From NCBI RefSeq assembly GCF_018687535.1, contig NZ_CP061295.1, positions 1,736,001 through 1,800,000 on the forward strand: a DNA stretch of 64,000 nucleotides, read 5' to 3'. Source of the stretch: Polynucleobacter sp. MWH-S4W17. GTDB lineage: Bacteria > Pseudomonadota > Gammaproteobacteria > Burkholderiales > Burkholderiaceae. Under the pieces are notes generated by a model, which worked only from the letters and a program-made list of their open reading frames with translations, did no database searches and was not told the DNA's origin. This document shows, one piece after another, positions 34,193-38,698 of this stretch (position 1 is its first letter; every line of letters starts with the position of its first letter). Position numbers and translations under genes: made by a program.

Positions 34193-34483
34193 TTACTTCT
34201 GTACAACAGCCATGATGTCGTCTTCACGCATCACGATGAGTTCTTCGCTGTCAACTTTTACTGTTTGACCTGCATATTTGCCAAACAACACGCGATCGCC
34301 TACTTTGACGTCAGGTGCGTTTAATTTGCCGCTGTCATCGCGCTTGCCCGGTCCTACTGCCAAAACTTCACCTTGATCAGGCTTTTCTGCAGCAGCGTCA
34401 GGAATAATGATTCCGGAAGCAGTTTTTGATTCTTGATCTAAACGCTTGATGATTACGCGATCATGTAAGGGACGCAAATTCAT
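34193..34483 (-). CDS. groES: Co-chaperonin GroES (10 kDa)
   Basis: A 96-residue GroES, the lid of the GroEL cage. It starts [18 protein letters not shown], has the mobile loop [22 protein letters not shown] (residues about 18-40) that contacts GroEL, and a dome segment near residue 50. Length is standard. The mRNA leader is long, roughly 125-130 nt from the proposed start site to the ATG, and includes the CIRCE element at its beginning and a small hairpin at 34568-34587. Identification is firm. Confidence 0.99.
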
Positions 34484-34592: not shown

Positions 34593-34619
34593 TTAGCACT
34601 CGCGTGTAGGGAGTGCTGA
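34593..34619. promoter_or_regulatory. CIRCE operator (HrcA-binding inverted repeat)
   Basis: The sequence TTAGCACTC, nine spacer bases, GAGTGCTGA matches the CIRCE consensus TTAGCACTC-N9-GAGTGCTAA with one mismatch in the last positions. It lies at the beginning of the groES transcript and touches the -10 box, the usual place for HrcA repression of groESL. Confidence 0.95.
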
Positions 34620-34701: not shown

Positions 34702-34737
34702 AGGCTGGTAGGCCGATTCCTACAGATAAATCAGCCT
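34702..34737 (+). promoter_or_regulatory. 5'-leader stem-loop of the degenerate-EAL operon
   Basis: Outer arms AGGCTG/CAGCCT and inner arms GTAGG/CCTAC, separated by an 8-nt bulge (AGATAAAT), make an imperfect stem-loop at the predicted 5' end of the mRNA. The bulge and right arm together form the 14-nt element also present in the groES leader. Confidence 0.5.
34724..34737 (+). repeat. 14-nt leader element, copy in the degenerate-EAL operon leader
   Basis: AGATAAATCAGCCT, the perfect inverted copy of 34565-34578. The two copies flank the divergent promoters, about 145 bp apart, each downstream of its own promoter and in the same orientation relative to its transcript. Confidence 0.75.
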
Positions 34738-34799
34738 AAAGCCCTTACCGCTCCAATCCGTCCTGCCTAGACTGGATAGCCACCGACTGGAGAATGCTG

Positions 34800-35642
34800 A
34801 TGAGCCCGAAATCCCGGCTGTACACGCTTGTAAAGGCATGGAAGAACAAACCCTTCCAAGAAGTACGAGACGCCTGTGGCGACCCCTGGCTTGGACTTAG
34901 TAACCAAGCCCTTGAAGAACACCAATCCTGGTCTAAACGACAAGCGATTAGTTATGAACCCATTTTTAACTGCAAGGGAACCAAACTGACAGGATCTTTA
35001 TTTAGACCATTACTGACTGCCTCTGACATGCAATTGCTGCGCCTTTTTATGGAAGGCTTAGACACCATCGCATATTGGTATCGCAGTGGTCGCTTTATTC
35101 CTGGCATTTTGCCAATACCAACACATGCCATAGCCTCAAGCCGCTACGTGGATGCAATGAGTGAACTCATTCTGAACTCACGCCTACCAGTGGGCTTGGT
35201 AAGTATTGGCATTCAAACAATTCCTGAGCCTGACATCGCCGATGCTTGTAAAGAAGGGTTGCTGCGTTTACGACGGCTTGGCATCTTGCTACATTTTCTG
35301 AAATTCACCGGAAGCATTGAAGAGTTGCAGTGGATCACGGAAATGCAATTAGAGGGCGTTCATATCGATATGAGTCAAATACGTGAACGCGAGCTGGCAA
35401 GCAATGTGCTTTCTCAACTCAGACAATCGCCCTACTCACCAACACAATTTTATGCCGGCAATATTGGGTTAGTAAAGGATTTAGAAAACGCTTCCACTCT
35501 GATTGCCGACCATTCCTATGGTGGTCTCATGATGTCGCCTGTAAGTCGCCATCAGATGCTGCAGATTAACGATAGTCGTATCGCTAAAGCCATTTTTTCG
35601 CTGCACCCTCATCCACACCCAAACCAAAACGGAGACAAGTAA
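34800..35642 (+). CDS. Degenerate EAL-domain regulatory protein
   Basis: A protein of 280 residues whose overall pattern follows the EAL fold: YEPIFNCKGTKLTGSLFRPLL near the start corresponds to the canonical QPIVDL..G..GFEALVRW, and later LQWITEMQLEGVHIDMSQI corresponds to LKxLPVDGIKIDxSFV. The catalytic residues are gone: no E-A-L, no DDFG(T/S)G and no ELTE-type metal ligand, so phosphodiesterase activity is not expected. It may still bind c-di-GMP or act through protein contacts. I prefer ATG 34800, six bases after GGAGA, over ATG 34794. The stop overlaps the response-regulator start (TAATG). By position it recalls Bordetella BvgR, an EAL-family protein linked to bvgAS. Fold assignment is by eye and tentative. 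Confidence 0.65.
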   Translation: MSPKSRLYTLVKAWKNKPFQEVRDACGDPWLGLSNQALEEHQSWSKRQAISYEPIFNCKGTKLTGSLFRPLLTASDMQLLRLFMEGLDTIAYWYRSGRFIPGILPIPTHAIASSRYVDAMSELILNSRLPVGLVSIGIQTIPEPDIADACKEGLLRLRRLGILLHFLKFTGSIEELQWITEMQLEGVHIDMSQIRERELASNVLSQLRQSPYSPTQFYAGNIGLVKDLENASTLIADHSYGGLMMSPVSRHQMLQINDSRIAKAIFSLHPHPHPNQNGDK

Positions 35643-36265
35643 TGAGAAAACGCGTGATGTTGGTAGATGACCATCCGGCAATGCTGATGGCTCTTAAAAG
35701 TATGTTGCAGGACCAGTTGCTTTTTGAGATCGCAGGGCAAGCCCAGAATGGTGAGGAGTGCCTTAGGTCCATGAAGGAGGTGAACCCCAATATGGTGATC
35801 CTGGATCTCGATATGCCCAAGACGGATGGCTTTGATGTCATACGCCGTATCGGATTAATGTATCCCGAGGTTCGAATGCTTGTTCTTTCCAGCATGGACG
35901 AGGCTGTTTATGGCGGGAGAGTACGCTCATTAGGCGGGCATGGTTTTGTAAACAAAACTGCAGGTGCAGATGTCATCCTAGCTGCTTGCGTTGCCATATC
36001 CCAAGGCTATAACTTTTTCACTCATGGCAAAAATGGCAATAGCTCATTAAGTGACAACGATAAGCTTGCGTTAATTTCTGATCGTGAGTTACAGGTTATG
36101 AAATATCTGGGCAAAGGTAACTCCAATCAGCAGATCTCTGAAATGCTGCATATCAGCAATAAGACAGTAGCTACTTATAAGACCAGAGTCTTTGACAAAC
36201 TAGGCATTAACAATATTGCAGACTTGATTTTGTTCTGTCGCATGAACAATATTATCGAAAGCTAA
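35642..36265 (+). CDS. NarL/FixJ-type (LuxR HTH) response regulator
   Basis: A 207-residue two-domain regulator. The receiver (about residues 3-120) has the acidic pair in MLVDDHP, the phospho-acceptor Asp55 in VILDLDMPKTDG, the Ser/Thr position in LVLSSMD and the conserved Lys in GFVNKTAG. The C-terminal LuxR-type HTH (about 142-200) reads ISDRELQVMKYLGKGNSNQQISEMLHISNKTVATYKTRVFDKLGI. It is BvgA/EvgA-like in size and domain order. Translation is coupled to the degenerate-EAL gene upstream, and the sensor kinase begins right after its stop, so the kinase's Hpt is its probable phosphodonor. Target genes are unknown. Confidence 0.92.
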   Translation: MRKRVMLVDDHPAMLMALKSMLQDQLLFEIAGQAQNGEECLRSMKEVNPNMVILDLDMPKTDGFDVIRRIGLMYPEVRMLVLSSMDEAVYGGRVRSLGGHGFVNKTAGADVILAACVAISQGYNFFTHGKNGNSSLSDNDKLALISDRELQVMKYLGKGNSNQQISEMLHISNKTVATYKTRVFDKLGINNIADLILFCRMNNIIES

Positions 36266-36271
36266 TTGAGC

Positions 36272-38698
36272 ATGCGTCGGTCCATCACCCGTATTGCCCT
36301 TTTTATCCTATTAAATGGGATATTAAACAATACCTATGCGAACTTACTGAATTCAGCAGAGCAAAGATGGATCGATGCTCATCCCATAGTACGTTTTAGT
36401 ATTCATGAAAAATATGCGCCTTACTTAGATGTGAATGGAAAGGGTGAGTCTGGAGTTTTTCATAGCCTTCTAAAAAAGCTCAGCGAATTTACCCAACAGG
36501 AGTTTTTACCGACGTGGCGAAAGAGTGATCAGGAGGGGCTTGAGCAACTAGCCAATGGAGAGGTAGATTTCATCATTGATCCGCCCGCTATAGATAATGA
36601 GTATCTGATGTTTGGGTCCTTATCAGAAGCAATCTTTTGGGGGCATGACGCTATTCTGACTAAACGGTCAAAAAACGATACGCCTATTGAGCCAATTAAT
36701 ATTGCCTACTTTGACCGTGGCTTTGAAAACCCGCCAATACCCAATCACCCCCAAGCTAGCGTATCCGGTCATGCAGAAAAATTAGTATTTGATCTTCTCA
36801 AAAATGATATTGAGGCGCTTGTCATACCGCTTCGTCTTGCGCAACAACTGATTCAGAAATTTAACGTAGATAAGTTACAAATTGATGGGCTTTACAGAAG
36901 AGAGCCCTTCAAATACCGTTGGCTTATCTCCAATCAAGATGAAGCTTTGCATGGAGTGCTTGAGCATTTTCTCAATAATCTAGATCCAATCGCATCACGA
37001 GGTCTTTTTAACATCAACGCATCTACTTTTGAAAGAGTCCACCCATCTGCACCCAACCATTTACCTTGGCTCTCCACTTTGGCAATCCTAGTGATAGGCT
37101 CTACCTTGCTTTGGCGCATGCATCAGAAACAATCACTTCAAAAGGAAGAGGCTCAAGAACTCATTTCATCGAAAGAGCAGGCAGAAAATGCAAACGCCGC
37201 AAAGTCTGCCTTCCTTGCCACCATGAGCCATGAAATTCGCACGCCCATGAATGCCATTTTAGGGGTGCAGGAGTTATTGCTTAGCAGCCCCCTACCTACA
37301 AATGAAAAAACTTTACTCAAGAGCGCGCACTCTTCAGCAGAATCTCTTCTAGGAATCCTAAACCAGGTTTTGGATCTATCAAAGATAGAGGCAGGCAAGC
37401 TTACGCTCAATATTGAGCCCTGCAATCTCAATGCTTTGATTGATGACATCGGTTCGGCATTCTCGACCGTGGCCCATAGACAGAGTCTCAAGCTACATAC
37501 CTCAAAAGATCCACGCATTGCAGAAGTCTTGTTGTTAGATTCTTTACGTCTACGCCAAATACTGCAGAACCTGATTAGTAATGCCATTAAGTTCACCGAT
37601 CATGGCGAAATCTACTTCTCTATCAGCGTGCTTGCAGATGATCATGCGGGGCAACTGATTGAATTCAGAGTCATTGATACCGGTGTTGGCATGTGTACAG
37701 AAGAAATTACCCTAGCACTGCAAGCTTTTGAGCAAATTCCGGGTAATAACGAACAAGTGAATGGCACTGGGCTTGGCCTAACCATTACCAATCACTTAGT
37801 TACCTCCATGAACAGCCAACTCTACTTTGAGAGCGCGCCTGGCTTTGGTAGCAATATTCATTTTTGCGTTGCGTTCCCACGTACCAGCATTGCTGCAACC
37901 AGAGCCTCTAGACCTGAACATTGCAATATATCCAGAAAGCTTGTCTCCAAGTGTGCTCAAAATAATGAGCGTCCATTACAAGCATTAGTTGTTGAAGATC
38001 ATGCCGCAAGCCGCCAAATTATCTTTCTTCAACTTCAGGCGCTGGGTATTGAAGTATCAGTTTGCGATAACGCTACCACAGCTCTGGATCTCATCAGTCA
38101 AAAGTATTTTGATCTTCTGCTAACCGATCAGTCTATTCCAGGCATGCAGGGTTCAGAGCTTGCCAAACACATACGCAATACAGGCAATCAAGATCTCATC
38201 ATCATCGGCATTACGGCAGATATCTATGCACTAGATTCGCGTCATCAATTCTTGGAGGCTGGCATGAATGGTGTTCTGATCAAACCATTAAGCCTCATGA
38301 CTTTAGAGAATGAGCTTACTCGCTATTTCCAAGTCGAAGAATTAACTGGACCTCCAACTCAAACCAGAGGTCTGGAGGAGTATTCATTTGACGCCTTCGG
38401 AAATCTCCTCAGAAATAGCCCAGAGTACATTCTGGTCATTCTGGAAGAAATTAAAAAGGTGCATGATGAGACCCTTCTTTCACTGAGAAATGAAGCCGTA
38501 GATGAAGACGCCTTCAGAAGTATGATTCATAAAGTCAAAGGAGGGGCACAGCTCCTCAATGCCGAATACTTTACTAGAGCATGCGAAGCCCTAGAGCAAG
38601 AGAAGAATTTAGATACTCGAATTACCACCTTCATTCAATTACTGGAGGACCAAAATCTAATTATTACTAGGTATCAATCTCAATATGCAAAGCTTTAA
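36272..38698 (+). CDS. Hybrid sensor histidine kinase with periplasmic solute-binding-like domain (BvgS/EvgS-like)
   Basis: An 808-residue phosphorelay kinase. Order: signal/TM segment (about 6-22), one periplasmic Venus-flytrap-like domain (about 25-260, beginning with the BvgS/EvgS-like pattern AEQRWIDAHPIVRFSIHEKYAPY), TM helix (about 266-284), short coiled coil, HisKA with His320 in MSHEIRTPMNAILG, HATPase with NAIKFTD, DTGVGM and GTGLGLTI, receiver with Asp619 in LLLTDQSIPGM, and a C-terminal Hpt with His753 in IHKVKGGAQLL. BvgS and EvgS have two flytrap domains and BvgS a PAS domain; here only one flytrap and no PAS are seen. ATG 36272 is chosen over a TTG six bases earlier that directly follows the regulator stop. 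The ligand is unknown. Confidence 0.9.
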   Translation: MRRSITRIALFILLNGILNNTYANLLNSAEQRWIDAHPIVRFSIHEKYAPYLDVNGKGESGVFHSLLKKLSEFTQQEFLPTWRKSDQEGLEQLANGEVDFIIDPPAIDNEYLMFGSLSEAIFWGHDAILTKRSKNDTPIEPINIAYFDRGFENPPIPNHPQASVSGHAEKLVFDLLKNDIEALVIPLRLAQQLIQKFNVDKLQIDGLYRREPFKYRWLISNQDEALHGVLEHFLNNLDPIASRGLFNINASTFERVHPSAPNHLPWLSTLAILVIGSTLLWRMHQKQSLQKEEAQELISSKEQAENANAAKSAFLATMSHEIRTPMNAILGVQELLLSSPLPTNEKTLLKSAHSSAESLLGILNQVLDLSKIEAGKLTLNIEPCNLNALIDDIGSAFSTVAHRQSLKLHTSKDPRIAEVLLLDSLRLRQILQNLISNAIKFTDHGEIYFSISVLADDHAGQLIEFRVIDTGVGMCTEEITLALQAFEQIPGNNEQVNGTGLGLTITNHLVTSMNSQLYFESAPGFGSNIHFCVAFPRTSIAATRASRPEHCNISRKLVSKCAQNNERPLQALVVEDHAASRQIIFLQLQALGIEVSVCDNATTALDLISQKYFDLLLTDQSIPGMQGSELAKHIRNTGNQDLIIIGITADIYALDSRHQFLEAGMNGVLIKPLSLMTLENELTRYFQVEELTGPPTQTRGLEEYSFDAFGNLLRNSPEYILVILEEIKKVHDETLLSLRNEAVDEDAFRSMIHKVKGGAQLLNAEYFTRACEALEQEKNLDTRITTFIQLLEDQNLIITRYQSQYAKL

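Follow-up and report, generated by a model that had tools for sequence, protein, structure and literature searches.

We examined a 64,000-nucleotide (nt) stretch (hereafter the window, G000:C1:1736001-1800000) of a single-contig, 2.05-Mb Polynucleobacter genome (its named relatives, at 91%-95% identity, belong to this genus), in which a triad of forward-strand genes lies between groES (minus strand, 34193-34483) and dacB (38730). The first gene (34800..35642) encodes a degenerate EAL-fold protein of 280 amino acids (aa), with a short conserved N-terminal helix followed by the EAL fold at about residues 49-260. The start at 34800 appears preferable to an alternative ATG at 34794, 6 nt further upstream, because of its spacing from a GGAGA motif and because of the homologues. 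The second gene (35642..36265) encodes a 207-aa NarL/FixJ-type response regulator, with a receiver at residues 5-115 and a GerE helix-turn-helix at residues 145-198, and the third (36272..38698) an 808-aa hybrid sensor kinase. The regulator start and the EAL-like stop overlap by one base (TAATG), and the kinase ATG lies 6 nt past the regulator stop; use of an in-frame TTG at 36266 would give a kinase of 810 aa. These positions bear out the layout of three overlapping or touching genes that a first-pass annotation of this DNA had described.

The EAL-like protein of the window itself has no Pfam or NCBIfam match. Three orthologues at the same locus do pass the PF00563 cutoff of 31.3 bits (G009, 34.3 bits; G078, 32.3 bits; G010, 31.4 bits), and a profile search of the PDB with 27 family members matched RocR and other EAL domains, with best E-values of 0.001-0.03. 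An AlphaFold model of the protein (42 sequences; predicted local distance difference test (pLDDT) 79.9, predicted template modelling score (pTM) 0.74) had EAL domains as all of its top 50 Foldseek matches (E 1.5e-12), and VIA-align superposed it on the EAL domain of DcpA (Z 22.8, root-mean-square deviation 2.9 over 211 residues) and on RocR (Z 21.9). At the level of the predicted structure, an EAL TIM-barrel-like fold is confirmed. We then checked the residues with which EAL phosphodiesterases bind metal and substrate (E, N, E, D, D, K, E, and Q). Compared with canonical EAL domains, the window protein has replaced the N, both ExTE glutamates, and both DDFG aspartates, as well as the K, both AEGVE glutamates, and the Q; all nine reliably aligned metal- or substrate-binding positions are substituted. 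Placing the N-terminal EAL motif is less straightforward, and its register rests on the predicted strands. MAFFT placed E53 as the retained glutamate of this motif, and we did not count it, because the predicted strands (52-57 and 63-68) disagree and put YEPIF under YQPxV, making the glutamate of the EAL motif a serine. Having lost its alignable catalytic and cyclic di-GMP (c-di-GMP) contact residues, the protein is predicted to be enzymatically dead, in line with its first-pass description as noncatalytic. The family conserves other positions instead, including Y92, W93, P130, G132, R159, H188, G241, M245, and H251-Q252. Ratios of nonsynonymous to synonymous polymorphism (pN/pS) against six relatives are about 0.09-0.34 for the EAL-like gene, which is therefore under purifying selection. 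Constraint is strongest on the regulator (0.02-0.07) and weakest on the kinase sensor (0.20-0.49).

This gene is a nearly constant feature of the genus. It was found in 92 of the 101 Polynucleobacter genomes sampled and in 76 of the 79 of better quality. The regulator follows it in every sufficiently long fetched region (39/39) and in every profile-fetched locus (46/46), and the kinase comes next in those loci, with the exception of L038, where the kinase is broken. Eight of the nine EAL-negative genomes, some of which are incomplete assemblies, also lack the regulator, and the ninth has a regulator at a contig end. The arrangement is kept at EAL protein identities down to 24%, which argues that it is not due to chance; regulator identity is 92%-100% within the main clade of the window, except for one locus at 81%. 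Rather than being missing from most homologous loci, the EAL-like gene stands first in every triad fetched, and this neighborhood survey supports the earlier suggestion that it is an intrinsic part of the operon, across nearly the whole genus. Outside the genus no ortholog was found: a family-level search of 200 genomes gave only two marginal non-genus matches, and non-genus matches in the order-level search were partial matches to EAL proteins, most of which are long and have several domains. Two apparent departures from the pattern were set aside. An EAL gene near a NarL regulator in G084 (L160) has flagellar neighbors and encodes a 432-aa protein of another type, which carries the canonical EAL-type motifs; it is not a relative of the operon. 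In L127, what looks like a 2.7-kb gap separating regulator from kinase consists of masked N and is no insertion.

GGDEF matches are present in 70 of the 101 genomes. Twenty-nine genomes carry the EAL-like gene with no GGDEF match at all, among them the single-contig, 99%-100% complete G004, G081, and G082, and this absence of a detectable GGDEF cyclase argues against a c-di-GMP role for the protein. Degenerate EAL domains can retain c-di-GMP binding, and GGDEF is matched twice in the genome of the window, where no protein matches Pfam EAL. In such a setting the EAL-like protein might serve as a c-di-GMP receptor (of the LapD/FimX type or the type proposed for BvgR) that couples the level of the messenger to the phosphorelay. 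We consider such a receptor quite unlikely, given the 29 genomes above and the fact that the substrate- and metal-contact residues are not only lost but also not conserved within the EAL-like family. Because the gene is kept in species without enzymes that make the second messenger, its product probably works by binding other proteins.

The other two members of the triad look like the parts of a phosphorelay. Pfam finds Response_reg and GerE in the regulator, as expected of the NarL-type protein first described; its matches to the kinase are HisKA, HATPase_c, and Response_reg. The best NCBIfam model for the regulator is EvgA (137.8 bits, below the equivalog cutoff of 251), and the kinase misses the EvgS equivalog cutoff (215.7 versus 1995 bits). 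The kinase has a single periplasmic Venus-flytrap domain (36335..37030), whose profile matches are EvgS (E 8.9e-9) and the second flytrap (VFT2) of BvgS (6e-5), and whose model (pLDDT 69) has BvgS VFT2 as its top Foldseek match (E 1.7e-10); a Pfam SBP_bac_3 search did not detect it. A transmembrane (TM) helix at 37064..37123 (LPWLSTLAILVIGSTLLWRM), read from the sequence and from hydropathy in homologues, separates the flytrap from HisKA (37199..37396, 64.8 bits, phospho-acceptor SHEIRT), HATPase_c (37538..37873, 72 bits), and a receiver domain (37985..38311, 69.3 bits). The Hpt domain (38435..38599, with the motif HKVKGGAQLLN) scores 20.2 bits, under the Pfam cutoff of 24.6; the Hpt of the relative L122 is above it (31.2 bits), and HKVKGG is intact in the window kinase. 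The phosphorelay motifs are intact in both the kinase and the regulator, and no Pfam PAS match was seen in the window kinase.

The single-flytrap, PAS-less kinase proposed in the first-pass annotation thus stands for the clade of the window, and does not hold as a general trait. Kinases from the P. rarus/kasalickyi side of the genus lack a periplasmic domain and carry two TM helices, and those of another clade have no sensor and at most one TM helix; judged from these sequences, the flytrap is a clade trait and not genus-wide. One relay core with three sensor states is visible at this locus. In the regulator tree, a single branch sets each state apart from the rest; the tree is unrooted and does not give the direction of gain or loss. 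Three kinases of 709 aa (L034, L035, and L036) seem to lack residues ~108-266 of the window kinase, or about half of the flytrap. The EAL-like gene is retained in both deep clades with two-TM or sensor-less kinases. Its presence in all sampled clades of this kind, and its translation ahead of the other two genes, could mean that the kinase receives a cytoplasmic input from the protein, which would replace sensing where the flytrap was lost or never present. However, the gene is equally conserved in the flytrap clades, and the unrooted tree does not settle whether sensors were gained or lost, so that we regard this role as unlikely.

Between the CIRCE-like element of groES and the EAL-like gene lies an inverted repeat, GTAGGCCGATTCCTAC (GTAGG-N6-CCTAC, 34708..34723), which stops 76 nt short of the EAL-like start and is a candidate autoregulatory box. 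Phylogenetic footprinting finds it conserved even where the spacer has mostly diverged or been deleted in relatives. All 13 flytrap-clade genomes scanned match the pattern GTAGGNNNNTTCCTAC exactly at the operon, with a sole match elsewhere, in G076 (a second match listed for G016 is the operon site read on the opposite strand). Eight of 17 further genomes have the pattern at the operon and nowhere else, and the P. rarus clade has a longer full palindrome, TTGTAGGAANNTTCCTACAA, at the same operon position. When two mismatches were allowed, scans of G000, G004, and G038 gave fewer matches than a control with the pattern reversed, and they turned up no further site that was both strong and conserved. 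Among their matches, a conserved one (C1:1362893, GTAGGTTTGACCCTAC) was set aside solely because its sequence looks like the 3' half of a tRNA, and another falls within a proB-like gene. The box is similar in layout to the UvrY/GacA box, TGTAAGN6CTTACA (PMC3171408), and the RcsAB box, TaAGaatatTCcta (PMC4325325). Since both of those are bound by NarL/FixJ-type regulators, the regulator of the operon is itself the likely binder.

A related site points to a possible target away from the operon. One of the boxes in genome G005 sits between a divergent 232-aa HTH_17 gene and sucA, and the same intergenic region in the genome of the window contains GTAGGAAAGTTCTTAT at C1:860142. Of 34 aligned genomes, nearly all have a box of this form at a distance of 79-91 nt from the HTH_17 start, and in 11 of the more divergent genomes it scores 15-18 out of 18 against a consensus from the operon box, whereas 1020 shuffles reached a maximum of 13. 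We therefore consider the HTH_17/sucA region one candidate target of the regulator. The regulon, which had been described as open, is less so now: a nearly unique candidate operator together with this conserved candidate target makes the question concrete. The HTH_17 protein itself (L208:1260-1955; G000:C1:859359-860054, minus strand), encoded divergently from sucA, resembles a degenerate receiver in its C-terminal part, and some of the genomes that lack the regulator carry a broken copy of its gene or none. The two further palindromic boxes of G005 (L225 and L228) lie one before a 191-aa open reading frame and one between TonB-receptor-like and CorC-like genes.

By anatomy the system is most like BvgAS-BvgR, EvgAS, and Roc. 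The BvgASR- or EvgAS-like layout first proposed is upheld as a similarity of anatomy; the link to BvgR is an analogy of function only, and Roc is equally close. With Bordetella BvgAS-BvgR it shares a NarL-type regulator, a flytrap hybrid kinase of the order HisKA-HATPase-REC-Hpt, and a noncatalytic EAL-fold protein (BvgR is without 12 of 13 residues; PMC11537037). In BvgASR, expression of the EAL-fold protein depends on the regulator, and the candidate box upstream of the Polynucleobacter operon may point to such a dependence there. BvgS carries a tandem pair of flytraps plus a PAS domain; the window kinase has one flytrap and no PAS match, and unlike bvgR, the EAL-like gene comes first in a single operon with overlapping starts. 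BvgR has been modelled as a c-di-GMP effector, whereas the EAL-like family persists in GGDEF-free genomes, which disfavors a BvgR-type c-di-GMP mode for it. Escherichia coli EvgAS has the nearest model for the regulator (EvgA) and for the flytrap (EvgS), but the window proteins fall far under both equivalog cutoffs, and they combine a single flytrap with an EAL-like protein alongside. In the Roc system of Pseudomonas aeruginosa (RocS1-RocA1-RocR), an SBP_bac_3-type hybrid kinase, a NarL-type regulator, and an EAL protein likewise form one signalling set; the flytrap sensor, HisKA, HATPase, REC, and Hpt of a Roc-type kinase set are all present here with the NarL-type regulator, and the EAL domain of RocR is one of the best hits of the EAL-like protein in both profile and fold searches. 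RocR, however, pairs its EAL domain with a receiver domain and has phosphodiesterase activity (PMC12051241). The EAL-like protein has neither a Response_reg match, with ~48 residues preceding its EAL fold, nor the catalytic residues, and its kinase has no PAS match. Each of the three systems thus differs from it in a defining feature: two flytraps plus a PAS domain in Bvg, scores above the equivalog cutoffs in Evg, and a receiver-linked active EAL phosphodiesterase in Roc. Outside such systems, YdiV (RflP), a dead EAL fold, works through contact with FlhD. BluF, also a catalytically dead EAL fold, works through contact with BluR (PMC3509220). The likeness of the EAL-like protein to these two lies in the dead EAL fold; contact with a transcription regulator is known for them and is proposed here. 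Neither YdiV/RflP nor BluF is known to be encoded in a phosphorelay operon, and both target other regulator families.

We read the operon, with modest confidence, as an autoregulated three-component phosphorelay in which the EAL-fold protein is a protein-binding adaptor. In the clade of the window, the kinase would detect a periplasmic ligand through its one flytrap and hand phosphate by a His-Asp-His route to the NarL-type regulator, which in turn would bind GTAGG-N6-CCTAC boxes, most clearly in the promoter of its own operon and probably in the HTH_17/sucA region. The dead EAL-fold protein may sit on the regulator or the kinase and tune output without c-di-GMP, much as in YdiV-FlhD or BluF-BluR. 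A bolder version, in which a genus-specific third phosphorelay component acts as an EAL-fold adaptor fully outside c-di-GMP signalling and supplies input where kinases are sensor-less, seems less likely than not.

Several observations weigh against the adaptor phosphorelay. The EAL-like gene is broken or shortened in L037 (G023), L038, L100, and L120, with the regulator intact in all four and the kinase intact in all except L038; it is therefore not indispensable. These few genomes would also suit the idea that the gene is a mere co-transcribed neighbor of unrelated function, an idea made very unlikely by the genus-wide order, the start-stop overlaps, and the joint absence of the EAL-like gene and the regulator. 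The operon of the sensor-less clade has no box, and the sensor-less G005 has three sites elsewhere instead. Finally, G069 is without the regulator yet keeps the HTH_17/sucA box, so another protein may bind there. On the other side, the regulator-less G084 has a broken HTH_17 gene and a box changed to GCAGG, which was counted in favor of regulator control; with one case each way, the pair is no test of it. The operon bears on a wider problem. In work on how noncatalytic EAL proteins such as BvgR act, the surrounding c-di-GMP network is the usual confounder, and a protein of this kind fixed across a small-genome genus, in which ~29 sampled members have no detectable diguanylate cyclase, offers a clean test of a c-di-GMP-independent role.

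Two further observations concern the surroundings of the operon. The CIRCE-like element (TTAGCACTC-N9-GAGTGCTGA, 34593..34619) belongs to the divergent groES promoter, outside the triad, and is kept in every aligned relative with an intact groES side. A contig titled as a Thermoflexus hugenholtzii metagenome-assembled genome (MAG; L134, CALPOM020000058.1) carries groESL and the operon in a form nearly identical to that of the betaproteobacterial MAGs L135 and L136, and because of this near-identity the contig has probably been misbinned.

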